A stretch of DNA of 64,000 nucleotides from a virus: positions 1 to 64,000 of IMG/VR virus record IMGVR_UViG_3300030101_002520. The stretch is one strand, 5' to 3'. A program made the position numbers and the translations under genes. The notes below the pieces were generated by a model. It saw only the letters and a program-made list of their open reading frames with translations, was not told the origin of the DNA and made no database searches. Positions 42,143 to 62,898 of the stretch are shown here, piece by piece (position 1 is the first letter of the stretch; the number at the start of each line of letters is the position of its first letter).

Positions 42143-45100
42143 ATGGCAGAAAATCCAAATATAGGGAACAATAAATTTATAAATCAAAATTATACACCAC
42201 CGGTAGATATAAACACAGGATCCGTACCTCAAATAAGTTCACAAGAACATCAGGATATTACTGATGCATTAAGAGAATCTACTATTCAATTTGATAGATC
42301 TTCTGAAATAGATCCTATGAGTTTAAAGTTTATAGATCAACAATCTAAAATTATTAATGAGCAAGAAACATTAAACCCTAGTAGATTTACATCCCCTTAT
42401 CCTGGTAATGCAACTCCTAATAGAAATCCATTTGCTTATAATACTGGTCAAAATGATCTTTCAACACAACAGGGTAGAAGAGATTATTTTGGATCTATAT
42501 TAGAAAGAGCTAATGGTATAAGTGATACAAGACCTCATGGTGGTGCTTGGCAAAATCCTATTATATACGGTAAAAGACAAGTTAATGCAGATAGATATTT
42601 AAGTCATCCTAGCTTTGATGATTTGGGTTTCCACCCTTATAGAGATAATGAAACATTCTATAATCAAAATAGTACATGGTATGATGATTTAGGTAGAACT
42701 AGTTCTGCTTTTGTTCAAATGTTTAAACCTGCTTTTACAAGTGGTTGGAGAGCTTTAGGTGATTTTATTAGTGGAGATGGTTTATCACAAGACTATATTG
42801 GAGCTGAAGCAATGCAAGATGCAATGAGAATAGCTTCATCAACTAGAGGTGGTATTACTGGATTTACGAATGATTTATATTTAAATAGTGCATACACATT
42901 TGGTATACTAGGTAGTATATTTGCTGAGGAGGTTGCTCTAGGTTTGGGTACTGTGGCAACTAAAGGTATGAGTTCATCTATTGCTGCACAAAGAACTGCT
43001 GGTAATTTTAAAAGACTATTTGATGCGGCTGATGCAATGAAGACAGGTGCAAGAAATATAGGAAACTTTTCTTACAATGTTATGAGAGATCTTGGTGCTG
43101 TAGACAAAGCAAAAGATTTTTATAACTATGCAAAAGGCAATATGTATGGGGATGAAGTAGGTAGATTTATATCAAACTTCTTTGCTCCAGAAACTACAAG
43201 AGCTCTTCAGACAATGAACTCTACAAAAAATACTGCTAAGAATGTATCTAATCTTTCTAAATTAAATACTACATTTGGTGCATTTTACAGAGATATAAGA
43301 CAATTTAATATTGCGTGGGCAGAATCTAAAATGGAAGGAGGTTTGCGTGAGATAGAAACTTTAGAAGAAGCTTATTTAAAAGCGTTACAAGAGAATGGTG
43401 GCAACCCTCTAACAGAAGAACAATATAATCTTATACATAGTAAATCTAAATCTGCAGGATTAGGAACAGCATTATTAAACTTTCCTATAATATATTTATC
43501 TAACAAGCTTGTATTTGATGGAGCATTAAGAGGATTTAAACCTTTAGCTAGACAACTTGATAATGCTAAATCAGGATTAGGCAGACAAATAATGAGAAAT
43601 ACTAAGGATGGTGTAGTAAATTCTGGCAAAAAAGCTTATGTAAATGTGGGTAGTGGTTTAAAAAGAATGTATAGAGAGGGTGTTGTAAATGGATTAAAAG
43701 CTGCAGGTGTTGCAGGTTTAAGATATAGTACAAGAAATTTTGCAGAAGGTTTTCAAGAATTAGCTCAGGAGCTAGTTAGTGCATCAGTTGGTGATTACTA
43801 TACAGGTTTATTTGATGAAGTTTTATCTGATTCTATGAATGCTAATGCAGCGGAACTTGAAAGTAGAGTTAAAAATGCTGAAGCTAGTATGGCACAAGCA
43901 ATAAGTTCTGGTCTGAATAATGAAGCTGTAGGTTTTAAAACATTTATGTCTGGATTTTTAATGGGTGGATTAGTTCAACCATTTCAAACTGTGATGTTTG
44001 AATATGTGCCTAATACCTATACTTATGTTACTGATAGAAAAAAGTATGATGCATATGCTAAAAAGAAAGAAGATTATATAAATGAGTCTACAAAGACACT
44101 AACTGAAATGTTTGATGATCCTAGAAATCTTTTTAAACTTACCAATTTAAATACACTTACACAAAAGCAACTTAATAAATTTATGTTATTATCATCATAT
44201 AATAATGATATAATGGCATTTAAAGATTCAAAAGATGCTGCAGCATTTCACCATGTGTTAACAATGCTTAGAGTAGGTAAAGCAGAAGACTTTAAAGCTC
44301 ATTTAAATGGTATACTTCAAATGAATGATGCAGATCTTCAAAATGCCTTTAAAGATACAGAAGCATCACCAGCAGAAATTAGAAAAAGATTTACTGGATT
44401 GATTGATAAGGTTGATACCATGAGAGATAGATTCAATAGATTTGATGATAAGTATATTAATCCTTATAATCCAGATAACTTTAAACAAGGTAGTAGACCA
44501 TGGGCTCAAGAAATAATTAGACAATCTGCATTTGAACATGCTAAGATGATGTTTATGTTTACTAATGATACTTATGAAAGATCTGTTGTTAGAATGGAAT
44601 CTATATTAAGTAATTTGTCTGTAAATCCTGTTATAGATAAAATGGCTGCTAATGATATAACTGCATTAACTAGTCAAAAAGGTATGCTTGCAGAGATAAA
44701 CATGCTAAAGGATGAAACATCTGTAGCCCCAGCTAGAAATGCTTCAGTAGAGTTAAAAGAACAATACAAGAATAAACAAGAAAAGTTAAAGATCTTTCAA
44801 GAGTTTTATGATACCTTTTATGCTAAAGATAATTACAAAATACTTAGCAGAACAAAAGATAAAGTTAAGTATGGTAAACTAAAAGTAAGTGGTAAAAATA
44901 AATTAAAGAAAGTATTTATTAAATTACTTGATCATCTTTCTAAAACTACTGGTGGTAGAATACAAGATAATGATGCAATAAATACAGCTTTTGAAATGAT
45001 TATTGATCATGAGTATTTAGCTGGTAGAGCTTCTGATTATTATCAAGCAGCAAGAATACTAGATGATCCATCTATCCTTAATGATTTAGCAGATAGATCT

Positions 45101-48100
45101 GCTGAAGCTATGAATAAAGTTTGGAATGATCAAAGAAAGAAGTTTAAAGTATACGGTAAATTAAAAAATTGGGTTGATAATCAGGAAAGAGCTAAAATAA
45201 TTTCTGATCTAGCAAAGGTAGGAATTTTTGCAGAGTCAGAACAAGCTAAGAATTTTATTGAGACTGGTCAACAACCAACAGAGTTTTTTAGTGAAGAAAG
45301 TAGACTAACAGCTATAACAGCTGAAGAAAATCCTAATGCTTGGAAAACTTTAACAAACATACTGAAAGGGTATCAAAAACAAAAAGAAGCTGAAGCAAGA
45401 GCTGCTAAAGATAAAGCTGGACAAGATCTTGAGATAAATAAAGAAGAGTTTGACAAAGATTCTGATCTTAGTGCTGGTGATGAAATAAATTCAGTTCCAG
45501 AAGTAGAGGAAGAAAGGGGAGCTCAGATATCATCAAACATACAACCAAGAATATACACACTAAAGGATTATCAACAGTTTATAGATCAAGATCCTGATAC
45601 ACAAGCTATACTTAATAAAAAGTATCAAGAGTATGAATATGCTTGGAATAAATTGGGTATAAAAAAATTATCAGGTAAAGAAGGTCAGATCTTAACTAAA
45701 AGTGAATGGGTTAATTCAAAAGAGGGCGGTGGTAAAATTGTTAAAGCAAGACACAGATTGTTTAGAACATACGCAATGCAATCACCTGGTATGAAGAACA
45801 AAACAACATTTGAAGAATATTTAACTAAGAATCAAGATCAACAATTTCTTATAAATGTTGTACAAGGATATGGTCTTAGAGTGGAAGATATACTTGTAGA
45901 TACAGTTATTAATGAGAATATAGCAGTTGAACAAGGTTTAGGTAGCAGAGATACAATAGTAGATACAGATAATGATTACTCTAAAAATAAAATTAAGATA
46001 GTTAGAAGAAGAAGATTTGCAACAGAAGAAGGTGTTGCAAGTGATTTCTTTATGGTTCTAACTCTTAATAATGAAAATACAGTTGATAAGTATGCAGGTC
46101 TTCCTAATGCAAATACTAATTTATCTACAACATATAAAACAGAAGCAGAAGCTATAGCTGCAGCTGATTGGTTAAGTATGAATATACCAGCTGCAAGTAA
46201 TTTTGATTTTACAGTAGAAGGTAAAGCTGAAGATGGATTTACAAGTGGAGAGATTGTTGTTAAAGATGGAAGAAGATATAGTGTAGAAAGTAAAGAGGAA
46301 GATAATAGCATGCTTGTAAAAGATTTAGAATCAGGTCAAGAAGAAACTATAGACGCAGGCAAGTTTGCATCAGAAGGTTGGACAAGATCTAAAGATGAAA
46401 AAATTCAAATAGCTGATATAAAAACTTCAACTAAACTATTTGTTGATAGGGCTTTACAAATACTTCCATTTGATCCAAATGCAGACTCTTATAAAACAAT
46501 GAATGATCCTCAGAAGGAAAAAATATTAAGAGCTCAAGCAAGAAAAGATTTTGAAAAAACATTACAACAATTAACTATTGATGAAATAAACAAATTAAAA
46601 TTTAGTATTGTAAAAGGTGAAGACTTTGAAAAGGTTATAACAAACACAGCTCCGTCTGACAGAGATGTATTTCCAGCTAGTGTTAATTATGATGAGAATA
46701 AACAAATAAGGGTTGGTGCTGCTAAGTATAGAGTTGTAATATACAAAGGAGATGAACCTTTTGCATTATTAGCTAGTCCTTATACAGCTACTATGGTAGA
46801 TTCTAAAGGAGAGAAAATAGATCCTTTAACAATTACACAAAAGCAAGCTGAGACATTATTTATAGGTGCAATAGCTGATCCAAGTGCATATAAAAAGATT
46901 AGAGCTAATTATGCTGCTGCATATGAAATAGAAAAGATATTTGAAGATGCATTAAAAAATTCTAAAGGTGATCAAGCTTTTATGTCTTTTAAAGACCTAC
47001 AAAAGAACAATATAGATATGCAGTTTACACCTGGTTTAATTCTATATAAGTCAGAAGAAGTGGTTAATGGCAAACAAATTAATAATGAATCAAGTATTGA
47101 AGAGTTAGCAAACAATGGCTTTACAGTTGCTGAGGGTGTTGGTACTGACGGTAATCCTTTATTCTTAATAGAAGATAACCAGATTATAGATAGAAAAGAA
47201 GGGGTAAGAGAAGAAGCATCTATTATAACAAATATATCTGTAAAAGATTCAAACACTCTTGATAAACTAAGAGCTGATATTAATGCATCTATGAGGCGTC
47301 AAGGTTTTGATACAAAGACAAAGCTAGGAAGATATGTTGGTTATGTTTATTCACCTGGTCTAGGTGAGTATACTGCCTTTGAATTAAAAGCAAAACCAAA
47401 ATCATTAGAGCAAGTAAATACATTATTTACAGAGTATCTTAATAGAATGGAAGATACTGTTAAAAATAATCTAGATAAAGGTAATGTAAAAGATGAATTG
47501 TATAATAGAGCTTTTAATACAGAAAAAGAACAAGATAATTTTATAGTAGGAAAAGGTAATCAACAATTTTCTATTAGTGTAACAAGTAGAGGTGATCTTA
47601 AATTTAGATATTATAATAGTGGTGTAAGAGGTGTTGGTATAAATATATTTTTAAAAGTAAAAGATGTAAAGAATCTTTTACAGTCAGAAGCTGGTGTTAC
47701 ATCTCTTTTAAAAAATATACAGAAAAAAGTAAACAATAAAATTAAAGCAGATAAGAAGCTGAATGATCTACAAAATCTTTTAATAAATCTTAATGCAGAA
47801 AACTTTAAAGACAGTTTACCAAAAGATATTAACTCTAACAGTAATAAGTATACCATAATAAATACTAAAATGGATGCTGTTATTGGTCCTAATGTAAGAT
47901 CTAAAATTTATGGTAATATAGTATTTAATGATACTTCCGCTATAAATAGTGCAATACAAACAGCATTAGATATACAAAGAGAAGCACCAGTAAAGACTTC
48001 AACTGTTACTGAAAAACCATTATCTAATGTTAGTTTAGAAGATACTGACTATTTTAAAAAACAATCAAAAGAGAAATTTGCAAATATAGATGAGTCTATA

Positions 48101-51100
48101 TTAAAAGAGATAGCTAATAAAATTGTTAAGGATGGTAAAGAAAGTTTAACGGAAAGAGAGAAATTAGCATTACAGAACACACCTAATAGTAGAAGGGTTA
48201 GTGAGTTTATGCTTGAGATTACTAGCAGGCAAGCTAGTTATAAAGCTCAAGAAGAAGCTGAGAACTCAGAAGAACAAAAAGAAGTTGACAGTGAATTAAA
48301 ATTACAAGACCAGTTAAGGGTTTTAAAGAAAGAAAAGTATGATAAATATTATCAAGAGAGATCTGTTGAAACTATAGATGGTCAACGTAATAGTAAGTAT
48401 ATAAAGAAAGAAGGAGAAAGAAGAAGGGCAGCTTTATCAGATGTAAGTCTAGATCCTGAGATACAAGATTTAACAAATAGAATAAATTCTGCACTTAAAG
48501 TAATTGATACAGAGTTTGATGGTAGAGACATAGAAGACATAAATAAATTTGTTACTTGGTTAAAAGCTAATCTACCTGAAGATATAGTAACTATAAAAGA
48601 TATAAATGATCTTTCTGAAAGATTAAAAAACAATGGTACTACTGTAGGAGCTTTTATTATGAGATTAAAAACACTACGTGGTAAGTCTAAAACTGTTGGG
48701 GAGATCTATACATCTAAAGAATCTCCATTTAGATATCATGAAGCATTCCATGCTGCGTTTAGATTATTATTAACTGAAGATCAAATTATAGACTTTTTAA
48801 ATGTAGCAAAGAAAGCTAAAAAAGCAGAACTTAAAAAAGAAGGTAAGAGTTTAGATCAAGCTTTAAAAGAACTTGCATTGCTAAGTCCTACATATTCTGC
48901 TATGAATAAAAAGGAATTAGAAGATACCTTATATGAAGAGTATTTAGCTGATGAGTTTGAAAAGTTTAAACAAAGCCCAACTAGTACAAAGATAGCTCCT
49001 AAAGTAAAAAGTTTCTTTACTAAGTTATTAGAAATGATAACAAAGATTTTTGAAAATGCATTTAAAGTATTTTCAGGATCTGCTTTAGTTGAGCAATCTA
49101 CAGATACTCAACTAAATAAATTATTCCAAGATATTGATTCTGGTAAATTTAAATCTTCTAAAACACAAGAGAACAGGTTTACAGATGCAGTTGCAGAAAC
49201 TAGTGGTGGTGTTTCTAACCCAGTATATGCTATAGTAGCAAAACAAACTGCAATTATACCAGTCACTGTAAGAAGAGCTGGAGAACTTATTACATTAAAT
49301 AGAAAAGTTGTAATACCATTTCCTGCAGAGCAAGTAGATAGTCTTGTAAAAAGAATTGCTGCAACATATACTCAACTTAAAAGTAGATTTGTACCTGCTA
49401 GAGAGACTCCAGCTTTTAGTAAATCTAAAGGTATAAGACAAGCTACTGATATGATTATTCAAATGTATGATCCAGGTAATTCACAATATGATCAGATTAG
49501 CAGTGATATAGAAAAGTTATTTGAATTAGAAGATATATATAATGCTTTAAATAATCCTGATAATAAAAAAGCATTGGCTAATGGTGTAAGAGATTATATT
49601 AATATTGTTGAAGAAGTAGACAATGTTTTAGAAGATAATATGGACGTGGCTAAAAACGAAGAGAGAGATGCTCCATATCAAATTGATGATAAGAGGAATC
49701 AGATGGCTGGTTTTTCTAATCTAAATGAAATGATAAGAATGTTTATTCTTACTACTACAGTTGATGTTCAAGATGATAGATTTGGAAATACTTTTGTAAA
49801 TCCTGATGCAGCTGAAGCAGATAGAATACCATTACAGGAGAGTGTTAACTATATTGAGGTGTTTAATGGATTGTTAAAAGCACTTTCTGGTACTGCTAAT
49901 CCTGCTACATCTCTAAGAAAGATGTCTATATTTGCTGAATCAAATAGAGAGACACAGGCTGTAGTTAACAGATTCTTTATGGAATTTTTTGGAAACAATG
50001 GACCTAAATTAATAAAAGACTTTGTAGAAGGTAGGTCTGAAATACCTACACCACAAGGCGCAAAAGGTGCAGAGTTTTTTCAAAAAACAATGAATGCTTT
50101 TCATCAGTTTAGAGTTGACTATATTGTAGGTCTTAAAGATAAGAAAACTGGTAATACAAGTTTAATTGCTGCAAACAAGAATGATGATACACATTGGCAG
50201 TTACAAAGATGGAGCAATTCATTTGATAACAAAGATTTAAGAAAAGGTACAGTTAGTTATAATACAATAATAGATGACTTAAAGAACTTAGAAACTCTTA
50301 TGACTTCAGGAGAAGTTTTAAGTGATTTAGAAGTTAGAGCAAAAGGGGAAAGTGTTGCGGAAGCTCTTAATAGACATTTAGGTATTGATATTTCACCTAA
50401 GTTTGTAGAGTACAGTTTATTATCTAGTATGGGTTCTTCTACACCTTATCAAAATAATCTATTAAGTTTATTTGAAGAGAGACCTATAACTATAAGTGAT
50501 GAGAATCAAAACTCTGATTTAACAGAAATTATAAAATCTTTACAGAGAGGCGAACAACTATATAATGAAACTAATAAAGAAGATTCTATAGAATCTGAAA
50601 AAGAAACATCAACAAATTATTCAGAGCAAACCTCTACTAATGCTCAGGGTGTATTTTATAGATTACAGAAATGGGCTATAGCTAATGCTGCTTTTGATGA
50701 AAAGGTTGGATCTACTGTAATGTTAGATCCAAAAGGTAATTATATATATACACATCAAACTCCTACATATCATTTAGAGATAGCACAAAAACTTAATTCT
50801 CAAAATGGTATTAATGATTTAATAAGTGAAAGACCTGACTTAGTTGCAAACACACTATTGCAAGATCCTAAGTTCTTAGCTCTTTCAGATGCACGTAAGT
50901 TAAGTATTATTAGAAGTTTAGGTACAAAAACAACAACCTTTACTGTTACAAATGATGGTCAAAAAATAGAGAATAAATCTTTAGATACTAATGATGATGC
51001 AAAAACATATGGTGACTATACTCCAGCTGAATTTTTAGCTGATAGGATAAATCTATATCTTCTTAATTTTAATGATCTAAATGGTAAGGTTGCACAAGAA

Positions 51101-54100
51101 AGTTTTTTTGAAGAAGATAAAGAATCACCTACAGTATTTACATACTCTCCTGTTTTACTTAGGGTAATGAGTGATTCTAATATGGGTGATATGCAAAACA
51201 TGCCTGTAATTAAAGTTCAAAGTAAAAAGAATACATTTGCTAAAGAGTATTTACAACAATGGGCAAATCTAATAAAGGATGATTATACAATTATACAAAC
51301 TAATAGTAAAGAACTAAGAGATGTTACATTATTTCCTGTAAGGAATGTACATAAAGGGTATAATGATATAGAAGCTTCTGATATTGATTTTACAAATGGT
51401 AATTTAAATCCTAATCTTGCAGATCCTAATAAAGCTAGAGGTTTTAAAATGGGTTTAGGTACGGCAGATGTATTAACAATAAGAAAGGTTGGAGAGCAAA
51501 AAGAGTTTGATGAAAGTTTAAAGTTGCATTTAGAAAAAGTAGCAAGAAGTTTTAAACCTGATGGCAGTCAGTATACTATAGAAGAGGCATATAAATCTTT
51601 TGTTAGTACTAAAACTGATGATTCAAGTGAAAGCGCACCAAAAAGAAATGCAGGAAGATTTATACTAGATGCTTTAGAAGCACAGTATAAAAGGTTTGAA
51701 AGTGAGCTAGAGGATTTAGGAGCTGATACTTTAGTTGATAATAGAATAAAAAAAGGTTTAGCAAAAACAGGAAATACAGAATTTAAAAATAATGCAAGAT
51801 TATCTCAAGCATTATTATTTTTAGGTACAGATGAAAGATCAAATCTAAGACAAATATATTTTAATAACTGGTTGCAAACTACACGTATTAATGATGTATA
51901 TCTACCTAATCAAAGCATGTCACTAAAAGATGCAGTAGATGCTATTAAGAGAGCTAAGATGCAAAATGCTGGTGGAGCAAATACAGAATCATATATATCT
52001 GCGCCTGAATTAGGTATAAATAAACCACTTCAAGAATTACATGTACTTATTGGTACTGATCCTTTAGTTAAGAAAAAGTATGATGTAGATGGTGAAGATC
52101 AAAAACCTGGAGAGCAAACAGATGGTCAAGGTTACATGACTACTAAAACTTTTAGAGCAACATGGTTTGGTTTAGGTAAGCTTACTGAGAATCAGGCAGA
52201 TATGTTAAATAAAATAGAAAATAATCAACCAATTACAGAAGAAGAATTTTTTGGTGCTGTAGAAGAAACAGAAGCAGGTTTAAGTAGTTTAGGTTATAAG
52301 GATTATAAATCTCAAATAAACTCTAAGAAGTATGTTTATGGAGACGGTAGTTTGTACTTTAAACTATCTTATACAGTTTTAACACCTGCTTTGGATAGTT
52401 ATGCTGATGGTACACCATTAGAAAGTAGGAGAAGGTTGTATAATTTAAGAACTACTTTGGAAGCCAAAGAAAAAAGGGATGATGTGTTTATGATGTATAT
52501 ACCAGAGTCTGCTTCTAAAATGCGTAAGACAGATATACTTGATAGAGAGACAAGTGAATTATTATTTGATCAAGGTCTTACTATTGGTGAAAGACTTGAA
52601 GGTTCACAAGTTATAACAGATATGGGTAAAAAGCTTGAAGATGCTATAGAAATTGTTCCTGCTAAATATATGAGACTACAACAAATAACTCCATCAAATA
52701 AAATGGAAGTTGTTGATCCTAGACAAATACAAAATCTTATTCTTAATGAGCAGAATGATGATCAAGATATTACTTATATGGGTGAATCCTTGAAAGTAAA
52801 AGATCTTAAAAAAATGTATCAATGGTCTATATCTAATAGAAAACAAATTAACTACTTTAATAGACATAGTTTAGTTTTTGATTTACAACATGGATTACAA
52901 TACTTACAAGAAGCTATTGATGAGAATAAAGTAACACCAGATCTAGATGCATTTGTTGATTATGCACAAAACTCCTTACAAGCATCACAAGCATCTACAT
53001 TATTATTAGAATACTTTTCTAAAGCTAAGAATGGAGAGTCTAGGTATGAATTAAATAATCCGGTTACAATACAAAAGTTTACGGAACTTATTATGAGTTT
53101 CTTTAGTAAGGGTGTAATTGCAGATAGGCAACCTGGTAAGGCTGTTGTGCTTGTATCTGATTATGGAATGGATGTGTATAAAAGGGTTGATGCAGTTGAT
53201 AATAATGGTACTCCTATAGCATGGACAGTGATAACAACAGAGGGTTGGAAACAATCATCTGCTCAACAAAGAGGTGCGTTAGTAGTAGATCCTACAGTAA
53301 ATCCAAATGGAGATGTAATAGGTTTATCTGAAGATCAAGTTTATGTTGATAGGCTAAGACATGATGTAGTTGAATATAAAAGAGATACTAATGGAAAGCT
53401 TATTAGAGAGGATGGGGAGTTAGTTTCTACTGGAGAAGTGTATACAGAGTTTATGTTACCTCCACACTTTAGAGAAGAGATGCAACTAAATCCTGGTGAT
53501 CCTATACCAGATGTAATAGCTAAACAGTTTGCAGTGCGTATACCATCTCAAGATAAACACTCTGCTATTAATTTAAAATTAGTTGATCACCTTCCTGTAT
53601 TCTATGGGTCATCCGGTGTATTTGCAAGAGAGTTATTAGAGATAACAGGATCTGACTTTGATATTGATAAATTTTATGTACATCATAAAGAGTTTTATGA
53701 AAATGAAAATGGTGAACTTGTAGAATATGGTAAAGGCAGAACTGCAGAAGAAAGGTATCAAGAATATCTAATGGCATCAGAGAAGGATATGTCAAAATCA
53801 GGAACAAATATTTTCTATGCATACAAGAAGTGGAGAGAAAGAAAAAGAACAGCTGATAAAGAAAAATACACAGATGTACAAGAAAAAATAAATAAAGAGT
53901 TTAATGAGTTTATACTTACTAGTGAAACAGGATTATTACTTAGTGGTCAAGATCCTAAAACATTAAAAGAAGCTTTTGCAAAAGAAAGAGGATATGATTA
54001 TGATTCAAAAGCTGATGAGTTTTATTTATCTCCTAACGAAGAAATTGGTGTTGAAGAACCAAATAAACAAGCAGCACTATTAGGATCTTTAAAGATTTTA

Positions 54101-57082
54101 AATCTACCGGTTACTATAGAGCAGTATGAACAGTTTAGAGAAGAGAATAAGTTTGTAACAGAAAGTGGTGCTACACTATTTAGAGAACCTTATGCACAAG
54201 CATATAGTAATAATATATTAGATTTTAAAATGTTATTGTTGGGTAATGACTCTATGTCAAAAGCTCAAGGTGGACGTTTACATGCTATAAAGAATGAGCC
54301 TGCTGTAGATAAACCTTTTGTAAATATATGGAATAGTTGGAAAGATAAACTACCAAACTACTATGAAAACAATAGAGTAGACTTAAACTTTAGTGTAAAT
54401 AATATTAATGGTCAAACTAAATATTATAAAGATAGTAAAGAAGGTGCAAGAAATATTGGAGCTGTAGTTCAACCTAATACATACTTAGGATGGCATAAAA
54501 TATTTAAAACAAAACTAAGAGATGGTCAACCAAATGAGAGTGGTATATATATAGGTCCTCCAACACTTAATGGACATACTTATAAAGACTATAATATAAA
54601 CTACTTTATTGATCCTAGTAATGGAAAACAGCTAAAGGATGGTGAAAGAATTCAATATGCTATGTCTGCATTAGTTTCTATTATGGTTGATAATGGAAAA
54701 AATCCATATGCAGCAAAGTTAGGTTTGAATAAACAACTTGTTGTAATGGTTGCAAATGCAATTGCATTAGGTATTAATCTTGAGACAGCATTATTACTTG
54801 TTAATCAACCTATTGTTCAGGATGCATTTAAACAATCTAATATAACAGGTACTAATGCAATCTCAACTCTTCGGTCAGCTTACAATGGATTTATAAAAGG
54901 TGAAAAACCATTAAATACTGTATCTATGGGTACAGAGGTTACAGATGAATTTTTGGAAGATTTAATACGTAAGGCTAAAAGACCTTTAGATAAAGGAACA
55001 AAAAGAAGTGTAGAGAAAGAAATGGCAGGTCTTAGAGAGTTTTTAAATCTTAGTTATATTACTCAAGCAAATAATAACCTAGGAGCTATAGCTGCATTAG
55101 CAGAAAGTATGGGTAGAGATCTAGATGCTGTTGCTAATACTAATAAAAATTTAAATGATTTAGGTTTGTTTTTAGACAAAGAAGATTATTTAGATGCTAG
55201 AGTAATGGGTAATCCAATACCTTTTGAGTATAATTTTGTTAAAGGAATAACAAATATAAATAGTATACCTGGTGTTAACACTAACCTATTTAAACACTTT
55301 ACAGATCTTAGTGTACCGTATTTATTAACTCCAGCAACTGAAGTTTTCATTGGATTAGAAAACTTTTTGACTAGAGGTCTTAAAGGTATGACTCCTAAAA
55401 GAACAGCTGATGCTACATCTAAAATTAGAAAAGATTTATTAAGTTATTTGACAATAAAATCTTATATGCATAATCTTAATCTATTAGGTGAGTCTGGTCA
55501 AGAATCATTAGCTTCATTGAATAACGCATTGATATATAATGAAATGGAGGGCTCTATAAGGATTGACAAAGAAATTGAAAAAGTAAGAGACTTTTTAAAA
55601 GCCACTGATCAAAAGAATGAGTTTATTAATTTATTTATTAGAAATGATAGAACTGGAACTAAAAAGAATAAGACTGGTATTAATAGAGTAAGGACGCAAA
55701 ATCTTGTTAAACTTAGTAACAATAAAGCTAATAGAATTCAAACATCCCTTATATCATTATTAAAAGATAAAACAACTAGAGCTGCTGTAACACACTTGAT
55801 ACACTATGAAATGGTTAAGAATGGATTTCAACAAAAAGCAGGATCATTTTTACAAGTTATAGCACCTGCATTACCAGATATTCAAATGTATTTAGGAGAA
55901 GCTAAAAGAGTTAAAGATCTTTTGTCAACTAAGTTTAAAAATTTAGAAGAGGTAGATGAAGGATTTAAAAATACATTTGGTTTAACACTTGATGAAACAT
56001 TACAAGATTTAAGTCAATGGTTTAGATCATCTAAAGATTCTTATTATATTCCACGAATTGGAAAGGGTGTACAATTTAATACATCAAAAGGAGTGAGATC
56101 ACCAATGTATATAAAAGATAATAAATTTATTGTAGATTACCATCAAGGTACAACTGAGATTACAAAGTATAAATCTAAAGATCCAAATGATAAAAGAATA
56201 AAAATACCAAAACTAGAAATAGATATTGAAAAGAAGTCATATGAAATATTAACAGGAGCAGGTTTTAGACCAAGTGGGTTAGGGTTTATATTTCCACAAG
56301 TTACATCAGTTTCCCAAACTTTAGCAGATGGCACCTCAACAGTAAAATATTATTATTTAAATAGATTATTTTCTCCATATACAAAAGGTAAGACAAATAC
56401 TAATTTATATGCTGCTGAGAAAGTTTCTAATGCTTTAGTTGGTACAACAGCTGAATATATAGAGTTTGATTTATTAGGTAGTAAAGATCAGTGGAAAATG
56501 GGTTTCATGTTTAATATTGCAAAGATTAATGGTAAAACTCAGTTACAACCCACACTTAAAGAGATAGCACAAAAAGAAAGTATGAATCAAACTGATGGAG
56601 CACCAATTCCTCCAAGTGATTATGCAGATCAGTCTTATACTATTCCAGCTAATGTTGAACCTAGGAATACTGTAAATGATACCAACATTAATAGTATAGA
56701 AGCAAACAATGATAAAATAGAATTTAAAAAAGATGATAACGTTGTTGGCTCAACTGAAAATCAAGATCCTCAAACTATTATAAATGCTAATGTTATTGTG
56801 GATAAAAAGAAGGCAGCTCCAGCATCTGCATTTAGTAAAGCTGAAGGAGTGGGTGCAAAGTTTTCTAAAGATAAGTTAGGGCCACAAACAAAAAAAGATA
56901 ATAATTATGTTGATGTAATTAGAGAGTGGTTTCAATCAACACCTGTTGGAGAACTTAATAAAGCTGCAGAAGCTAATTTGCTTACTGGTGCTAGATTAAA
57001 AGACTTTGTAACATATTATGAAAAGAATAGAAATGTTACTAACTTAGATGACTTCATGTATAGACTTAAAAACTGTAAATAA
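42143..57082 (+). CDS. Giant virion RNA polymerase-like polyprotein with HEXXH motif
   Basis: This single 4979-aa frame of 14.9 kb is exceptional even for phages. The N-terminus (residues about 130-260) has R-Y-L-S-H-P-S-F-D-D-L-G-F-H-P-Y-R-D-N-E-T, a signature I associate with the large ejected proteins of Bacteroidota phages, followed by a hydrophobic segment. A zincin-like H2199-E-A-F-H2203 motif lies near the middle. Near the C-terminal third, D3838-F-D-I-D3842 (in I-T-G-S-D-F-D-I-D-K-F) matches the DxDxD metal-binding loop of the single-chain virion RNA polymerases of crAss-like phages, which transcribe early genes after ejection. The length suggests fusion of what are separate proteins in relatives, or later cleavage. 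It is coupled by TAATG to the last late gene. Confidence 0.72.
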   Translation: MAENPNIGNNKFINQNYTPPVDINTGSVPQISSQEHQDITDALRESTIQFDRSSEIDPMSLKFIDQQSKIINEQETLNPSRFTSPYPGNATPNRNPFAYNTGQNDLSTQQGRRDYFGSILERANGISDTRPHGGAWQNPIIYGKRQVNADRYLSHPSFDDLGFHPYRDNETFYNQNSTWYDDLGRTSSAFVQMFKPAFTSGWRALGDFISGDGLSQDYIGAEAMQDAMRIASSTRGGITGFTNDLYLNSAYTFGILGSIFAEEVALGLGTVATKGMSSSIAAQRTAGNFKRLFDAADAMKTGARNIGNFSYNVMRDLGAVDKAKDFYNYAKGNMYGDEVGRFISNFFAPETTRALQTMNSTKNTAKNVSNLSKLNTTFGAFYRDIRQFNIAWAESKMEGGLREIETLEEAYLKALQENGGNPLTEEQYNLIHSKSKSAGLGTALLNFPIIYLSNKLVFDGALRGFKPLARQLDNAKSGLGRQIMRNTKDGVVNSGKKAYVNVGSGLKRMYREGVVNGLKAAGVAGLRYSTRNFAEGFQELAQELVSASVGDYYTGLFDEVLSDSMNANAAELESRVKNAEASMAQAISSGLNNEAVGFKTFMSGFLMGGLVQPFQTVMFEYVPNTYTYVTDRKKYDAYAKKKEDYINESTKTLTEMFDDPRNLFKLTNLNTLTQKQLNKFMLLSSYNNDIMAFKDSKDAAAFHHVLTMLRVGKAEDFKAHLNGILQMNDADLQNAFKDTEASPAEIRKRFTGLIDKVDTMRDRFNRFDDKYINPYNPDNFKQGSRPWAQEIIRQSAFEHAKMMFMFTNDTYERSVVRMESILSNLSVNPVIDKMAANDITALTSQKGMLAEINMLKDETSVAPARNASVELKEQYKNKQEKLKIFQEFYDTFYAKDNYKILSRTKDKVKYGKLKVSGKNKLKKVFIKLLDHLSKTTGGRIQDNDAINTAFEMIIDHEYLAGRASDYYQAARILDDPSILNDLADRSAEAMNKVWNDQRKKFKVYGKLKNWVDNQERAKIISDLAKVGIFAESEQAKNFIETGQQPTEFFSEESRLTAITAEENPNAWKTLTNILKGYQKQKEAEARAAKDKAGQDLEINKEEFDKDSDLSAGDEINSVPEVEEERGAQISSNIQPRIYTLKDYQQFIDQDPDTQAILNKKYQEYEYAWNKLGIKKLSGKEGQILTKSEWVNSKEGGGKIVKARHRLFRTYAMQSPGMKNKTTFEEYLTKNQDQQFLINVVQGYGLRVEDILVDTVINENIAVEQGLGSRDTIVDTDNDYSKNKIKIVRRRRFATEEGVASDFFMVLTLNNENTVDKYAGLPNANTNLSTTYKTEAEAIAAADWLSMNIPAASNFDFTVEGKAEDGFTSGEIVVKDGRRYSVESKEEDNSMLVKDLESGQEETIDAGKFASEGWTRSKDEKIQIADIKTSTKLFVDRALQILPFDPNADSYKTMNDPQKEKILRAQARKDFEKTLQQLTIDEINKLKFSIVKGEDFEKVITNTAPSDRDVFPASVNYDENKQIRVGAAKYRVVIYKGDEPFALLASPYTATMVDSKGEKIDPLTITQKQAETLFIGAIADPSAYKKIRANYAAAYEIEKIFEDALKNSKGDQAFMSFKDLQKNNIDMQFTPGLILYKSEEVVNGKQINNESSIEELANNGFTVAEGVGTDGNPLFLIEDNQIIDRKEGVREEASIITNISVKDSNTLDKLRADINASMRRQGFDTKTKLGRYVGYVYSPGLGEYTAFELKAKPKSLEQVNTLFTEYLNRMEDTVKNNLDKGNVKDELYNRAFNTEKEQDNFIVGKGNQQFSISVTSRGDLKFRYYNSGVRGVGINIFLKVKDVKNLLQSEAGVTSLLKNIQKKVNNKIKADKKLNDLQNLLINLNAENFKDSLPKDINSNSNKYTIINTKMDAVIGPNVRSKIYGNIVFNDTSAINSAIQTALDIQREAPVKTSTVTEKPLSNVSLEDTDYFKKQSKEKFANIDESILKEIANKIVKDGKESLTEREKLALQNTPNSRRVSEFMLEITSRQASYKAQEEAENSEEQKEVDSELKLQDQLRVLKKEKYDKYYQERSVETIDGQRNSKYIKKEGERRRAALSDVSLDPEIQDLTNRINSALKVIDTEFDGRDIEDINKFVTWLKANLPEDIVTIKDINDLSERLKNNGTTVGAFIMRLKTLRGKSKTVGEIYTSKESPFRYHEAFHAAFRLLLTEDQIIDFLNVAKKAKKAELKKEGKSLDQALKELALLSPTYSAMNKKELEDTLYEEYLADEFEKFKQSPTSTKIAPKVKSFFTKLLEMITKIFENAFKVFSGSALVEQSTDTQLNKLFQDIDSGKFKSSKTQENRFTDAVAETSGGVSNPVYAIVAKQTAIIPVTVRRAGELITLNRKVVIPFPAEQVDSLVKRIAATYTQLKSRFVPARETPAFSKSKGIRQATDMIIQMYDPGNSQYDQISSDIEKLFELEDIYNALNNPDNKKALANGVRDYINIVEEVDNVLEDNMDVAKNEERDAPYQIDDKRNQMAGFSNLNEMIRMFILTTTVDVQDDRFGNTFVNPDAAEADRIPLQESVNYIEVFNGLLKALSGTANPATSLRKMSIFAESNRETQAVVNRFFMEFFGNNGPKLIKDFVEGRSEIPTPQGAKGAEFFQKTMNAFHQFRVDYIVGLKDKKTGNTSLIAANKNDDTHWQLQRWSNSFDNKDLRKGTVSYNTIIDDLKNLETLMTSGEVLSDLEVRAKGESVAEALNRHLGIDISPKFVEYSLLSSMGSSTPYQNNLLSLFEERPITISDENQNSDLTEIIKSLQRGEQLYNETNKEDSIESEKETSTNYSEQTSTNAQGVFYRLQKWAIANAAFDEKVGSTVMLDPKGNYIYTHQTPTYHLEIAQKLNSQNGINDLISERPDLVANTLLQDPKFLALSDARKLSIIRSLGTKTTTFTVTNDGQKIENKSLDTNDDAKTYGDYTPAEFLADRINLYLLNFNDLNGKVAQESFFEEDKESPTVFTYSPVLLRVMSDSNMGDMQNMPVIKVQSKKNTFAKEYLQQWANLIKDDYTIIQTNSKELRDVTLFPVRNVHKGYNDIEASDIDFTNGNLNPNLADPNKARGFKMGLGTADVLTIRKVGEQKEFDESLKLHLEKVARSFKPDGSQYTIEEAYKSFVSTKTDDSSESAPKRNAGRFILDALEAQYKRFESELEDLGADTLVDNRIKKGLAKTGNTEFKNNARLSQALLFLGTDERSNLRQIYFNNWLQTTRINDVYLPNQSMSLKDAVDAIKRAKMQNAGGANTESYISAPELGINKPLQELHVLIGTDPLVKKKYDVDGEDQKPGEQTDGQGYMTTKTFRATWFGLGKLTENQADMLNKIENNQPITEEEFFGAVEETEAGLSSLGYKDYKSQINSKKYVYGDGSLYFKLSYTVLTPALDSYADGTPLESRRRLYNLRTTLEAKEKRDDVFMMYIPESASKMRKTDILDRETSELLFDQGLTIGERLEGSQVITDMGKKLEDAIEIVPAKYMRLQQITPSNKMEVVDPRQIQNLILNEQNDDQDITYMGESLKVKDLKKMYQWSISNRKQINYFNRHSLVFDLQHGLQYLQEAIDENKVTPDLDAFVDYAQNSLQASQASTLLLEYFSKAKNGESRYELNNPVTIQKFTELIMSFFSKGVIADRQPGKAVVLVSDYGMDVYKRVDAVDNNGTPIAWTVITTEGWKQSSAQQRGALVVDPTVNPNGDVIGLSEDQVYVDRLRHDVVEYKRDTNGKLIREDGELVSTGEVYTEFMLPPHFREEMQLNPGDPIPDVIAKQFAVRIPSQDKHSAINLKLVDHLPVFYGSSGVFARELLEITGSDFDIDKFYVHHKEFYENENGELVEYGKGRTAEERYQEYLMASEKDMSKSGTNIFYAYKKWRERKRTADKEKYTDVQEKINKEFNEFILTSETGLLLSGQDPKTLKEAFAKERGYDYDSKADEFYLSPNEEIGVEEPNKQAALLGSLKILNLPVTIEQYEQFREENKFVTESGATLFREPYAQAYSNNILDFKMLLLGNDSMSKAQGGRLHAIKNEPAVDKPFVNIWNSWKDKLPNYYENNRVDLNFSVNNINGQTKYYKDSKEGARNIGAVVQPNTYLGWHKIFKTKLRDGQPNESGIYIGPPTLNGHTYKDYNINYFIDPSNGKQLKDGERIQYAMSALVSIMVDNGKNPYAAKLGLNKQLVVMVANAIALGINLETALLLVNQPIVQDAFKQSNITGTNAISTLRSAYNGFIKGEKPLNTVSMGTEVTDEFLEDLIRKAKRPLDKGTKRSVEKEMAGLREFLNLSYITQANNNLGAIAALAESMGRDLDAVANTNKNLNDLGLFLDKEDYLDARVMGNPIPFEYNFVKGITNINSIPGVNTNLFKHFTDLSVPYLLTPATEVFIGLENFLTRGLKGMTPKRTADATSKIRKDLLSYLTIKSYMHNLNLLGESGQESLASLNNALIYNEMEGSIRIDKEIEKVRDFLKATDQKNEFINLFIRNDRTGTKKNKTGINRVRTQNLVKLSNNKANRIQTSLISLLKDKTTRAAVTHLIHYEMVKNGFQQKAGSFLQVIAPALPDIQMYLGEAKRVKDLLSTKFKNLEEVDEGFKNTFGLTLDETLQDLSQWFRSSKDSYYIPRIGKGVQFNTSKGVRSPMYIKDNKFIVDYHQGTTEITKYKSKDPNDKRIKIPKLEIDIEKKSYEILTGAGFRPSGLGFIFPQVTSVSQTLADGTSTVKYYYLNRLFSPYTKGKTNTNLYAAEKVSNALVGTTAEYIEFDLLGSKDQWKMGFMFNIAKINGKTQLQPTLKEIAQKESMNQTDGAPIPPSDYADQSYTIPANVEPRNTVNDTNINSIEANNDKIEFKKDDNVVGSTENQDPQTIINANVIVDKKKAAPASAFSKAEGVGAKFSKDKLGPQTKKDNNYVDVIREWFQSTPVGELNKAAEANLLTGARLKDFVTYYEKNRNVTNLDDFMYRLKNCK

Positions 57083-60000
57083 TGGCAACTTGTTTTAATA
57101 GAAATTTACCTGCATATCAAACACTTTTAGAGAAGTATGATTCTCCTATGTTTGTAGATGGAGTTATTAATGGATGGCAAAAAGTAAATAGATCTGAACT
57201 TATGCCTACTGTACTTGAAGCAGAAGATTTTTTAAAAGATCAAAAAGAAGTTGGTGTTTTAGATAAACAAAATTTAAAACAATCTATTCTTACAAACTTG
57301 GGTGTAAAAGGTAAAGGGTTAATTAGCAGATTTGGTGAATCATATTATATAAATAATACTAATAAAGAAGTAAGAGCAATTAAAGGTGATGTACAAACAT
57401 TAGAAAGAAATAAGAATAGTGTAGAAAGATTATTAGATTGGTGGCAAGTAACACCAGAGGCTGTAACAATAACAAAGACAGACAATTCTTATAGGTTAGA
57501 TATAAATGCTAATCTACTAAATATGCAAGATGTTATAACAGAAACGTCAGATGTAACACATTTGCAAGATATACTTCAACATCTAACAAGATTATTTCCT
57601 GATGTACAAATTCAAGTGATGAGTGAAACTGATGCAAAAAGAATGTATAATTCATTACCTCAATTTACATCAGAGTTTCAAAAGCCCATAGATTTTAAAG
57701 ATATAAAAAGTTTTTATGTAGATGGTCAAGCCATATTAGTTGAAGGTAGAGTAACATCAGAAACAGCAATAGAAGAAGTATTACATCCATTTGTTAATGC
57801 TTTATATGCAGATAAATCAGAGTTGTTTAGAAGATTAAAAACAGAATCAGAACGTTCTTTTCCTAAACTAGCTCAAGAGATAGCTGGTGCATATACAAAG
57901 ACTAAAGGTTTTGATAATATAGATAGAGATAAAGAGTTGGTTACACAAGCAATGGCTAGACACTTTAAGAGAGAGTATGAGCAAAATCCTACAGAAAGTT
58001 TTAGATCTAAGATTAGAGAGTTTATGAGATGGCTGATGGATGTATTTAGAGATCTTAGTAAGTGGGTTGTAGGTAAAGATTTAGTATTAGCACCGGGTAT
58101 GATAGACAATGCTAATAACTTAACAAGTCTTTCTAAAATTTTGAATACAGGTGATTTAAAATTTGGTCTTGATAGAGCTATAAGACAAGATAGGAAAGTT
58201 AGATTTAGTTTAACACCTAAATTTCAAAAGATATACAATAAAGTAAAAGGTAAAGCCACTTCACAAAAACAAATTACTAGGCTTGATGATCTTTATAATG
58301 TAAGCATTAATAGTCAAAAGCCTATAGATGACTTTACTGTTTCTATGTCAAAAAAGAAAAATCATCCTCTAGTAATATTAAATAAAAAAACACACAAATA
58401 CATTAGTGTAGAAAACATTAATGACCCCTTTACAAGTGTAACTACAAAGATAGGAGGTTTTAGTTCTAAAAGCTATTCTATTAAAAAGGGTGATACTATA
58501 GCAAGCATTGCTAAAAGTTTAGGAACAACTATAAAAAAGATTAAAGAGTTAAATCCAATAGGTGATAATTTAAATACGCTTACTAAAGCAAATGGTCAAC
58601 CTATAAAACAATTATATGTGCCACAAGAAGATTTTCAAATCAATATGGATATTGGTAATGATTTTGATTCTATAGTAAGTGCTATTGTATTAGATGAAGG
58701 TATAGACAGTGTAGACTTAAAAGTTGTTAGTAAAGAAGTTGCAGAAGATTTTTATAAAAAGATGAAGAAAGATCTTGCAGTATTAACAAGAAATGGTGGA
58801 ATACTAATACCACAAGTTGTAGTATCAGATAAGCTTAATCAAATAGCTGGTACTATAGATCTTTTATTTATGGATGAGAATGGAGCTTTAGAGATTATAG
58901 ATATTAAAACAAGCAAGGATAGTTTAAATGCTCTTGTCAATGGTAAATTAAAATATGAAGAAACTTATTTTCCTGTTACCTATGGTAGTATTTTTTATGA
59001 TCCTGCTAAGTCTCATGCAGATCAGCAAAAGTTTACTAAAGAGCAAATGCAAGCATTGCAGGTAAATTCTTATGCTCAGATATTAAGAAATCAAGACTAT
59101 GATATTGATTCTACTTTTACCTATCATGTGCATACACCCACAACAGGGAAAGGTATTAATCAAAAATATACACAGAAATTTGTTATTGAGGGTATTAGAA
59201 CACAATCAGAGACTGCTGATGTGCTTATTGGTGATCCAGGTAATAATAACTTTGCTTCTGAAATGATGGTAAAAGATTTTTCAGATCCTACAGCAAATGA
59301 TAAATTATTTACTTTAGATAAAAAAACAGGAGAGAATGAGATAGAGGTAGATGAGTCTGAGATAGATGCAATAGCAGAGAATGTAACTTCTAAGATGATG
59401 TCAACAGAATCTGTACTTGAACAAATAACAGATTTTAGAGTTGCAATGAGTACAAGAAAAGAAAACTATCAAAGAGTAAAAAATCAAATTGCTTTTTTTA
59501 AAGATGGTAAAGATGTTGTTCAAGAGATTGATAGAACGTTAGCAATTATAGATGCTGGTGTTGAAGATGGCAATGTAATTCCATTATTTGAAGAGATTGT
59601 AAAACAATCAATAAAAGAATTAGATGACTTTATTGAATATGTTAACAACCCAGATAGCTATTTACTGGATGATAAATATATATCTAAAGTGTTAAACTAT
59701 TCAAAAATGGTGAGCACATATGAAAGTTTATCAGAAGTAGAAAAAGCAAAAGGTTTAACAAAGGCACAACTACAATTACTAGAAGAGTTAAGGGGAAAAA
59801 TATATACAATTAACGGTAAAAGAGATGGTTTAGGAAATATAATAGAGGGTAAAGAAGGTTTGATTAATACTGCTATAGATAATTTTGCTAAACAATTTAT
59901 AAAAGATAATTCTAAAAGAGATTTTACACAAGAAGATTTAGAGGACATATTAAGGTGGGGTTCAGATATGGGTATGATAGAGTATCAAACAGGCACACTT

Positions 60001-62898
60001 GCCACATCAAGTGATACTATTCTAGCTTTAATGGATAAAATATTTAAAAGAAAAAGACAAGAAATATTAGATAGAGTAGAAGAAAGAAATTCAGAAGTAA
60101 GAAAGCTAGCTTCTAAAATAGAAAAACTATCTCCGGGTAGAAAAGCTAATTTTGATTTTATGATTGTGCTTGGTGATGATGGTCAACCAACTGGAACTTA
60201 TGTTAGAAAAATAGGTGACCAGTATTATAAAATGAAAAGACAAAGAACTGACAAACTTAAAAATGCTGATGGTGATCCTTTAGAATATGTAATTAAAGAT
60301 AAACTTACACCTGAAGAAATTGCTTATAATAAAAAGTTATATAAAGATAGACAGGAGTATAGAGATTTTATGAAAGCAGAAAGAGTTATAGATAATAAAT
60401 TAGAGGAAGGGAAGTATCATAAGTATAGTGATGTGTTTAAAAAAGAAAGATTGAAGTTTATGTTTTTTGATGGTCAACAATGGCAAAAAAGAGACAGAGT
60501 ACCATTAAATGAATATCTAGAGTTTAGAACTAAGTATTATAATCCATCTAGTTTTTTTAGACCAGAGTTTGATAAAGATGGATTTTCAGGTTATTTAAAA
60601 GAAAAGAAACAGGGATGGTTTGTTAAGTCTGAATATGTTGAAATTAAAGATGAGAGTTCAGAAGATTCAGGATCAGTAAATCTTTTAGACTCAAAGTATC
60701 AAAAGATTATGAATCCTACAGATGCATTGGGTAGAGCACAAAAAGAGTTCTATGAAATGTATGTTAAGTATTTTGAAGAAGATCTTCTTACAAAACTTCC
60801 TATGCGTGTTGTGCAACAAATGCACGGTAGATTACCATTAATTAAAGATACACAATATCAACAACTTAAAAATGCTCCTAATATGATGTCTGAGTTATGG
60901 GCTAAAGTTAAAGGTGTTCCGCGTGGTATATATGATTTCTTTGCAACTAAAACTCAAAAGTCAAGAGTAGTTTTAACTGATGAGTATGGTAATTTTACAA
61001 GCACACTTCCAATATTCTATACAGGTAGTATTCAAACTCAGCAAGATCTTCAAGAAATATCTGATAAGATAAGAGCTAAAGAGGATGAAATAATTAGAGC
61101 TAATGGTGATACAAGAACAACACAAACTAAAATTGATAAATTAAAACAGCAGCTTGAAGACCTAAAGGGTAAAAAAAGAAGAATGCAAAATAGACCTGAA
61201 GCAAGAGAATTAAGTAGAGATCTTGCTGATAGTTTGATAAGATTTAGTGCAATGGCTGAAAACTATGAGATTATGTCAGGTGTAGAAGATACTCTTAGTT
61301 CATTAATAAAAGTATTGGAAAGAAGAACCTATGATCCAGCAACTGGTGATGATCTTAAAACTTTTAAAGATGGTGTAATGCAAAAGGCTGGTTTGAAAGG
61401 AAACTCAGGTTTAGAAACACCGTTAATTGTTAGGAGAGCAAAGAAGTGGATGAAGATGGTTTTTTATGATGATGATCAGAAAACAGAGAATGTATTTGAA
61501 AAAATATCTAGAGGTTTAATTAGTTATACATCCTTAACATATGTTGGTCTTAACCCTTGGGGTAATTTGAATAACTATGCTATAGGTAGATTAAATAATT
61601 TAGTAGAGACAGCTGGTGGTAGATGGTTTGATAGAAAAGCTGCTGTAAGAGCAACAAAAGAATTTAATCAAAGAATGATACCAGACTTTATGAAAAGAAT
61701 GGGTGGTAGAACTTTTCTTAATGATGCTATAGGTGTAAGTCCAAGTCAATATGAAAAGTATAAACCAGGTAGTAAGTATGAGGCTCTTGTAGAATTATTT
61801 AGAATGATGGATGATAAAGCAGATATACGAGAGCAAAATAAAACTGCTGGTAAAGAAAGTCCATTAAGAAAAGCTATGAGTTGGGGTTATATGTTGCAAG
61901 ATGCTGCTGAGTATAATGTACAAACCAAGCTAGGTATGGCAATACTAATGTCTACTAAAATATTTAAGAGTGCTGACCCAGATGGAAGTAAAAGTGCTAT
62001 ATCTTTATTTGATGCTTATGAGTACAACCAAGAAACAGGCAAACTATCTCTACAAGAAGGGTATGATACAGTTATAGATTTTCAAACAGGCAAGCAACAA
62101 AAGATGTCTGATAAAGCAAGATATGATATTAGACAATACATACGTGAGGTTAACATACATGTACATGGTAACTATGCCTATGAGGATAGAATGGTATTAC
62201 AGTCTAGCGCATTAGGACAACTAGCTGCACAGTTTCATAAATGGATTGCGCCAGCTGTTAAGGCAAGATATAGATCAGAATATTTTGATGAAAATCTAGG
62301 TTGGATAGAAGGTAGGTATAGAACCTTTTGGAATTTTATGTCTTATACGGCTAAGAATATGACAGATATTAGAACAGCAGCTAAAGACTGGAAAGAGTTG
62401 CAGGGAGAGAAAGCAGAAATGAAAGTTAAAAATCTTCATAGAGTTGCAGGTGAGTTAATGTTATTTATGATGACAGTAATGTTAAGACAGATGTTTGCTG
62501 CAATGTGGGATGATACAGATGAAGATAAAAAAGGAACAATGAAAAGATTTCAAAATGCTTTTATGTATCAAATGGATAGACAAAGAAGAGAACTTATTCA
62601 GTTTGTAAATCCTGTAGATGCATTTATGTTAATGAAGTCTCCAATTAGTTCTGTAAGAATGATGAAAGAGATGTCTGAAGCATTAATGACTGGTGTACAA
62701 ACACCTTTTGTTATTGGATCATATAAACTACGTGGTGAAGGAGATGTAGAATTAGATAAAAGAATATATTATCAAAGAGGTGCTAAGAAAGGAGATCTTA
62801 AACTTTACAAAGAATTTTATGACGCATTCCCAGGTCTCTACGCATTAAACAGATGGATGTCATATGACAATGTAAAAAACTTCTGGGTAGGAGAATAA
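57082..62898 (+). CDS. Giant virion-associated protein with LysM and PD-(D/E)XK nuclease domains
   Basis: The 1938-aa product is translationally coupled to the polymerase gene. Near residues 231-235, E-E-V-L-H-P resembles a zincin HEXXH motif with the first histidine lost. Residues about 464-520 are a LysM-like peptidoglycan-binding unit (Y-S-I-K-K-G-D-T-I-A-S-I-A-K). Residues about 585-700 fit a PD-(D/E)XK nuclease: G-T-I-D593-L-L-F, then E604-I-I-D607-I-K609, then Q-A-L-Q-V-N-S-Y-A-Q. Long coiled coils follow (near 770-960 and 1330-1380). The last 400 residues are helical with a hydrophobic segment (L-M-L-F-M-M-T-V-M-L-R) and Q-F-H-K-W-I-A-P-A. A role in crossing the cell wall and processing DNA at entry is inferred. 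It ends the rightward late block. Confidence 0.65.
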   Translation: MATCFNRNLPAYQTLLEKYDSPMFVDGVINGWQKVNRSELMPTVLEAEDFLKDQKEVGVLDKQNLKQSILTNLGVKGKGLISRFGESYYINNTNKEVRAIKGDVQTLERNKNSVERLLDWWQVTPEAVTITKTDNSYRLDINANLLNMQDVITETSDVTHLQDILQHLTRLFPDVQIQVMSETDAKRMYNSLPQFTSEFQKPIDFKDIKSFYVDGQAILVEGRVTSETAIEEVLHPFVNALYADKSELFRRLKTESERSFPKLAQEIAGAYTKTKGFDNIDRDKELVTQAMARHFKREYEQNPTESFRSKIREFMRWLMDVFRDLSKWVVGKDLVLAPGMIDNANNLTSLSKILNTGDLKFGLDRAIRQDRKVRFSLTPKFQKIYNKVKGKATSQKQITRLDDLYNVSINSQKPIDDFTVSMSKKKNHPLVILNKKTHKYISVENINDPFTSVTTKIGGFSSKSYSIKKGDTIASIAKSLGTTIKKIKELNPIGDNLNTLTKANGQPIKQLYVPQEDFQINMDIGNDFDSIVSAIVLDEGIDSVDLKVVSKEVAEDFYKKMKKDLAVLTRNGGILIPQVVVSDKLNQIAGTIDLLFMDENGALEIIDIKTSKDSLNALVNGKLKYEETYFPVTYGSIFYDPAKSHADQQKFTKEQMQALQVNSYAQILRNQDYDIDSTFTYHVHTPTTGKGINQKYTQKFVIEGIRTQSETADVLIGDPGNNNFASEMMVKDFSDPTANDKLFTLDKKTGENEIEVDESEIDAIAENVTSKMMSTESVLEQITDFRVAMSTRKENYQRVKNQIAFFKDGKDVVQEIDRTLAIIDAGVEDGNVIPLFEEIVKQSIKELDDFIEYVNNPDSYLLDDKYISKVLNYSKMVSTYESLSEVEKAKGLTKAQLQLLEELRGKIYTINGKRDGLGNIIEGKEGLINTAIDNFAKQFIKDNSKRDFTQEDLEDILRWGSDMGMIEYQTGTLATSSDTILALMDKIFKRKRQEILDRVEERNSEVRKLASKIEKLSPGRKANFDFMIVLGDDGQPTGTYVRKIGDQYYKMKRQRTDKLKNADGDPLEYVIKDKLTPEEIAYNKKLYKDRQEYRDFMKAERVIDNKLEEGKYHKYSDVFKKERLKFMFFDGQQWQKRDRVPLNEYLEFRTKYYNPSSFFRPEFDKDGFSGYLKEKKQGWFVKSEYVEIKDESSEDSGSVNLLDSKYQKIMNPTDALGRAQKEFYEMYVKYFEEDLLTKLPMRVVQQMHGRLPLIKDTQYQQLKNAPNMMSELWAKVKGVPRGIYDFFATKTQKSRVVLTDEYGNFTSTLPIFYTGSIQTQQDLQEISDKIRAKEDEIIRANGDTRTTQTKIDKLKQQLEDLKGKKRRMQNRPEARELSRDLADSLIRFSAMAENYEIMSGVEDTLSSLIKVLERRTYDPATGDDLKTFKDGVMQKAGLKGNSGLETPLIVRRAKKWMKMVFYDDDQKTENVFEKISRGLISYTSLTYVGLNPWGNLNNYAIGRLNNLVETAGGRWFDRKAAVRATKEFNQRMIPDFMKRMGGRTFLNDAIGVSPSQYEKYKPGSKYEALVELFRMMDDKADIREQNKTAGKESPLRKAMSWGYMLQDAAEYNVQTKLGMAILMSTKIFKSADPDGSKSAISLFDAYEYNQETGKLSLQEGYDTVIDFQTGKQQKMSDKARYDIRQYIREVNIHVHGNYAYEDRMVLQSSALGQLAAQFHKWIAPAVKARYRSEYFDENLGWIEGRYRTFWNFMSYTAKNMTDIRTAAKDWKELQGEKAEMKVKNLHRVAGELMLFMMTVMLRQMFAAMWDDTDEDKKGTMKRFQNAFMYQMDRQRRELIQFVNPVDAFMLMKSPISSVRMMKEMSEALMTGVQTPFVIGSYKLRGEGDVELDKRIYYQRGAKKGDLKLYKEFYDAFPGLYALNRWMSYDNVKNFWVGE

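Follow-up and report, generated by a model that had tools for sequence, protein, structure and literature searches.

The question raised by this locus is whether a reading frame of 4979 codons, at 42143–57082, encodes one genuine protein, and what such a chain would do for the virus. The window (the whole stretch of DNA analysed, 64,000 nucleotides long) is part of a 115,139-bp virus contig, and the frame, the gene after it, and the portal, capsid, ring, and muzzle genes all lie on the plus strand. Read from the letters, the frame runs from ATG to stop with no internal stop codon, bearing out the initial annotation, which had claimed a single uninterrupted frame; stop-free runs in 20 shuffles that preserved the composition reached 103 codons at most. 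The motifs HEAFH and DFDID were found exactly where they had been placed by that annotation, at residues 2199–2203 (48737–48751) and 3838–3842 (53654–53668), respectively. DxDxD as a bare pattern is found at four places in the giant (residues 1104, 1148, 1274, and 3838) and therefore carries no weight by itself; what is conserved in all relatives is the context of DFDID, G-[SA]-D-F-D-[IV]-D. Searches of the giant against PHROGs and Pfam gave nothing significant and a single-sequence PDB search was likewise empty, so that profiles were needed; the pattern GATTTTGATATTGAT was a poor query, and phage records searched at the DNA level yielded no match. From the analyses below we conclude that the giant is a genuine protein, in which a virion RNA polymerase and a virion partner with a protease-like motif are joined in one chain. 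On our main reading (probability about 0.9), it is the RNA polymerase that a deep-branching environmental crAss-like phage carries in its virion, and it is made up of a gp47-like part ending in a zincin-like HEAFH domain and a gp66-type catalytic part.

The genome was found to be Crassvirales-like by its conserved virion genes, comprising those for the portal protein (845–3595; phrog_6547, E 1.3e-90), the major capsid protein (5068–6711; Pfam Crass_capsid, E 3.6e-30), tail ring protein 2 (19913–20584; Pfam CrAss_Ring_2, E 2.7e-18), tail ring protein 1 (20584–21498; Pfam CrAss_Ring_1, E 1.3e-12), the 2979-aa muzzle protein (21498–30437; Pfam crAss_MUZ, E 4e-17), and TerL; there was also a weak match to phi14:2 IHF (E 6e-4). 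TerL spans the contig ends: the last ORF covers positions 77–566 of phrog_6681 and the first ORF of the window covers 553–743, and the two parts (L003 9591–11139 and window 1–740) join in frame, which suggests that the genome is complete, circular or permuted, and cut within TerL. Within the virion gene block, the giant occupies the 3' end and is followed by a gene for a second RNAP-associated protein of 1938 aa (57082–62898), a homologue of crAss001 gp49 (E 6e-25) and phi14:2 gp65 (E 5e-15). Single-sequence hhalign of the upstream genes (910, 1027, 795, and 1122 aa) against gp45 and gp46 gave no match.

Several features of these neighbours were observed in passing. The 910-aa (30437–33169) and 1027-aa (33226–36309) virion-block proteins share a short, 54%-identical stretch, and the former has distant similarity to a 495-aa protein (XAI97386) of Leptolyngbya phage Lbo-JY46 (PP438436; L094/L095). 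Judged by its portal (34% over 81%), this phage, which has a cyanobacterial host, is the closest of the named relatives, suggesting that crAss-like phages occur outside Bacteroidota hosts; it possesses a crAss-like tail block with gp47- and gp49-like proteins, no DxDxD catalytic protein was seen in its corresponding block, and a literature search found no paper on it. The window's muzzle protein, a protein of the tail tip, carries, toward its C-terminal end (residues 2275–2467; 28320–28898), a Reprolysin-like M12 metallopeptidase domain with the motif HELGHNIG (Pfam Reprolysin_5, E 7e-9), and the homologous 1654-aa muzzle of Lbo-JY46 does not have the extra length. In the gp49-like protein, a LysM domain at residues 465–491 (Pfam, E 5e-7) and weak endolysin-family similarity at residues ~341–563 (E 1e-5) suggest a putative cell-wall-binding segment in the polymerase partner; Pfam detected no LysM or endolysin-type domain in the relative L012. 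The same protein may contain a second zincin-like domain at residues ~207–294, where the motif is degenerate in the window (EEVLH), as it is in cr118_1 and crAss001; HExxH is intact in phi14:2 gp65, cr114_1, and Lbo-JY46 and present in L040, L049, and L055.

Profile comparison and structure modelling identified the C-terminal ~2600 residues of the giant as a predicted catalytic subunit of the same type as phi14:2 gp66, a polymerase with two double-psi barrels in a single chain. The DFDID block, predicted to form the metal-binding catalytic loop, is common to the giant, crAss001 gp50 (E 1e-9 against the giant), and proteins of Intestiviridae and Suoliviridae, and GSDFDID of the giant aligns with the corresponding segments of all of these and of the solved phi14:2 gp66 (6vr4), itself matched by crAss001 gp50 with E 6e-32. 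A 60-sequence profile of relatives matched 6vr4 with E 3.4e-21 and with the DFDID loops aligned. The catalytic core was modelled with AlphaFold2 over residues 3140–4330 (51560–55132; pLDDT 82.8, pTM 0.83), and in a Foldseek search with this model, 6vr4 was the sole match below 0.001 (E 3.1e-25, probability 1.00, 1180 columns), followed by weaker matches to QDE-1 and then mostly to other two-barrel or multisubunit RNAPs, e.g. Pol I. The query-normalised TM to 6vr4 was 0.53 and the overall rmsd was large, so the domain arrangement either differs from that of 6vr4 or is mis-modelled. The profile and model matches uphold the initial annotation's claim of a single-chain polymerase of the phi14:2 gp66 type; around residue 3840, where it had proposed to look for double-psi barrels, the predicted fold matches that of 6vr4, with the barrels not delineated individually.

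The N-terminal half (residues 1–~2340; 42143–49162) was identified by hhalign as a homologue of crAss001 gp47, phi14:2 gp67, and the zincin-RNAP-associated protein of Intestiviridae. With an N-half profile, residues 141–723 matched the 'RNAP associated protein fused to zincin protease' of Intestiviridae (E 3e-8), and residues 547–734 (E 5e-9) and 2134–2341 (E 4e-9) matched the gp47/gp67 pair; controls with column-shuffled templates and unrelated large phage proteins all gave E of at least 0.1. The homology is remote and limited to residues ~141–734 and ~2134–2341. Near the point where a gp47-like and a gp66-like gene would be expected to meet lies a poorly conserved linker of low model confidence (residues ~2301–2360; 49043–49222). 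In crAss001 gp47, HEAFH stands 184 residues before the end of the protein, and in phi14:2 gp66, DFDID begins at residue 1361; mapped onto the giant, these distances place the end of the first gene at ~2380 and the start of the polymerase at ~2480 (2355 by crAss001 gp50), just past the linker. In the giant, a gp47-like virion protein and a gp50/gp66-like catalytic polymerase are therefore joined head to tail. The N-terminal signature of ejected proteins seen by the initial annotation is not a defined motif; what stands is that homology between this region and crAss proteins packaged in virions can be detected. Likewise, the proposed fusion to ejection partners holds in that a virion-protein homologue roughly doubles the length of the chain, but it concerns the gp47-like partner only, the gp49-like subunit being encoded by the separate next gene and four more large upstream genes being separate as well. 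BLAST of the giant against gp45 and gp46 (ejection cargo proteins C1 and C2) at E 1e-3 returned no match.

The presence of a zincin-like domain before the junction raises the possibility that the chain is cut. At the level of sequence, the residues of an HExxH motif with a third zinc ligand are conserved (H2199, E2200, H2203, and E2265/E2266), HEAFH being the predicted zincin motif and the conserved EE at 2265–2266 the possible third ligand. HEAFH and the downstream EE are invariant in 57 aligned relatives, for which HEAFH, and not EE, was a selection criterion. The model of the HEAFH domain reached a pTM of 0.50, with low confidence in the stretch just before the motif, and its Foldseek search matched no solved zincin fold; a sub-threshold profile match of the region was to Pro-Pro endopeptidase (E 0.11). 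Self-cleavage of the giant by this predicted protease domain is possible. As a polyprotein precursor, the giant would be cut near residues 2300–2480 by the HEAFH domain or a different protease, and the working polymerase would be a separate gp66-like protein as in phi14:2. Such a precursor would fit the invariance of HEAFH and EE, the poorly conserved, low-confidence stretch between the halves, and the existence of the halves as two genes in relatives; it fits poorly with the failure to recover a zincin fold, with the absence of the motif from phi14:2 gp67 and the relative L048, and with its presence in crAss001 gp47, a protein encoded apart from the polymerase. Since HEAFH occurs in unfused gp47 and is missing from gp67, cutting the giant's junction cannot be its general or sole role, and we regard the precursor as unlikely. 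Still less probable, in our estimation, is that an intact polymerase-protease chain of ~560 kDa is packaged and threaded into the host, where its own zincin domain would free the polymerase after entry, cleavage switching on early transcription. A literature search found no paper linking zincins with crAss-like phages.

The closest named systems share parts of this arrangement. Like the window, the Suoliviridae (delta crAss) encode giants (cr118_1 gp14, 4946 aa; cr114_1, 4272 aa; cr60_1, 4494 aa) in which a HEAFH/HEAWH domain is followed by a DFDID polymerase in one chain, with a gp49-like gene next, and a profile match to the window's giant runs through the polymerase half ahead of the loop (E 1e-19). 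They differ in sharing ~31–33% identity in the best local stretch and in being set apart by a fully supported long branch in the RNAP tree. Two of these giants are deposited under misleading labels, cr118_1 gp14 (L010) as 'exonuclease V' and that of cr60_1 (L090) as 'nuclear pore complex protein-like protein', and when the 4272-aa giant of cr114_1 (L009 10557–23375) is read with table 11, 69 stops fall in frame, which agrees with the stop-codon reassignment that has been described in its group (PMC7886860). Phi14:2 shares the catalytic fold, the DFDID loop, and the gene order gp67-gp66-gp65 with the window; by contrast, its three genes are separate and its gp67 has no HExxH. In crAss001, gp47, gp50, and gp49 are homologues of the window's N-terminal half, C-terminal half, and next gene, respectively, but the genes are separate, gp49 and gp50 lying on the opposite strand from gp47. 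Intestiviridae (CrAssphage C0521BD4, cr3_1, and cr107_1) resemble the window in having a zincin RNAP-associated protein and then a DFDxD polymerase, and differ in that the polymerase is joined to the gp49-like part and the zincin protein is separate, whereas Steigviridae have one gene for each of the three parts.

Thermus phage P23-45 gp96 is also a virion chain of ~5000 aa with a two-barrel RNAP, there fused to the tape measure protein of a very long tail and located N-terminally (PMC10770324). Reading the window's giant as a tail tape-measure/RNAP fusion of this kind would account for the similar length (5002 aa in gp96), the DFDxD loop, and the virion role (PMC10770324), and 8h2m was among the weak fold matches (E 0.04), but we consider it highly improbable, given that the virion genes encode crAss ring and muzzle proteins of the short-tailed type, 6vr4 is by far the best match, and the polymerase of the window is C-terminal.

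A scan of viral contigs with six aligned sequences found at least 431 encoded relatives, of which 80 were taken for analysis; single-sequence scans of viral contigs had found one. By HMM, 73 of the 81 related loci were found to combine the zincin and polymerase regions in a single ORF, and 75 of the 81 to have the gp49-like ORF separate. Among the eight other loci, four have the upstream part cut by the locus end (L024, L026, L055, and L071); L004 and L091 belong to a single contig interrupted by ten Ns, a scaffold gap in the nearest relative (75–80% aa identity), in which the frame is kept open; L031 is frameshifted, and the closely similar contig L033 is intact; L048 alone appears to be without the zincin motif, and its gene is split. 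An overlapping frame break was also present in L080, one of the 73. The deposited Suoliviridae genomes have the same fusion in their giants of 4272–4946 aa. A sequencing or assembly artefact that joined adjacent genes, for which the separate halves in phi14:2 and crAss001 could be cited, was rejected as next to impossible, since the fusion is conserved across independent assemblies, as one frame in those 73 loci and likewise in the Suoliviridae records, and the giant's own frame is open throughout.

In the RNAP tree, for which the tool warns that long-branch joins need care, the giant falls in an environmental clade, which a long branch (100/100) sets apart from every named family; it did not group with Suoliviridae, and the fusion is nonetheless shared with them. 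The kind of fusion is already known from public Suoliviridae records and from the literature: papers have described crAss virion RNAPs that are fused, as well as crAss genes for RNAPs that reach ~6000 aa (PMC10770324, PMC10136315; gene length in PMC10136315), and GenBank already has an RNAP-associated protein annotated as fused to a zincin. What is new is a deep environmental clade outside the named families, represented by ~80 environmental contigs, in which the fusion is the rule. Homology, fold, gene order, and conservation of the fusion are established by the present analysis.

As to function, gp47, gp49, and gp50 of crAss001 were detected in virions by mass spectrometry, and its tail passage narrows to under 50 Å in places, so cargo presumably travels through it partly unfolded (PMC10172136). 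A phi14:2 virion RNAP is active in vitro and was linked to rifampicin-resistant transcription of early genes (PMC10136315). Homology to these virion proteins of relatives implies that the giant should be packaged, ejected, and used in early transcription. Most probably, the virion would contain it together with the gp49-like product of the following gene, and it would leave through the tail in a partly unfolded state, before the DNA or along with it; once refolded in the cell, it would transcribe early genes without the host polymerase, its DFDID loop presumably holding the catalytic metal, and the covalent link would tie the polymerase to its travelling partner.

Across the group, the crAss transcription block consists of a zincin partner (Z), a catalytic part (R), and a further partner (A), which are kept while the gene boundaries move: Z and R are fused in Suoliviridae and in the large environmental clade, R and A in Intestiviridae, and all are separate in Steigviridae. 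These shifting boundaries with constant Z, R, and A argue that all three act together. A deep environmental lineage that belongs to none of the named families can now be credited with a virion RNAP of this type, and the natural fusions allow one to ask which parts must travel or stay linked.
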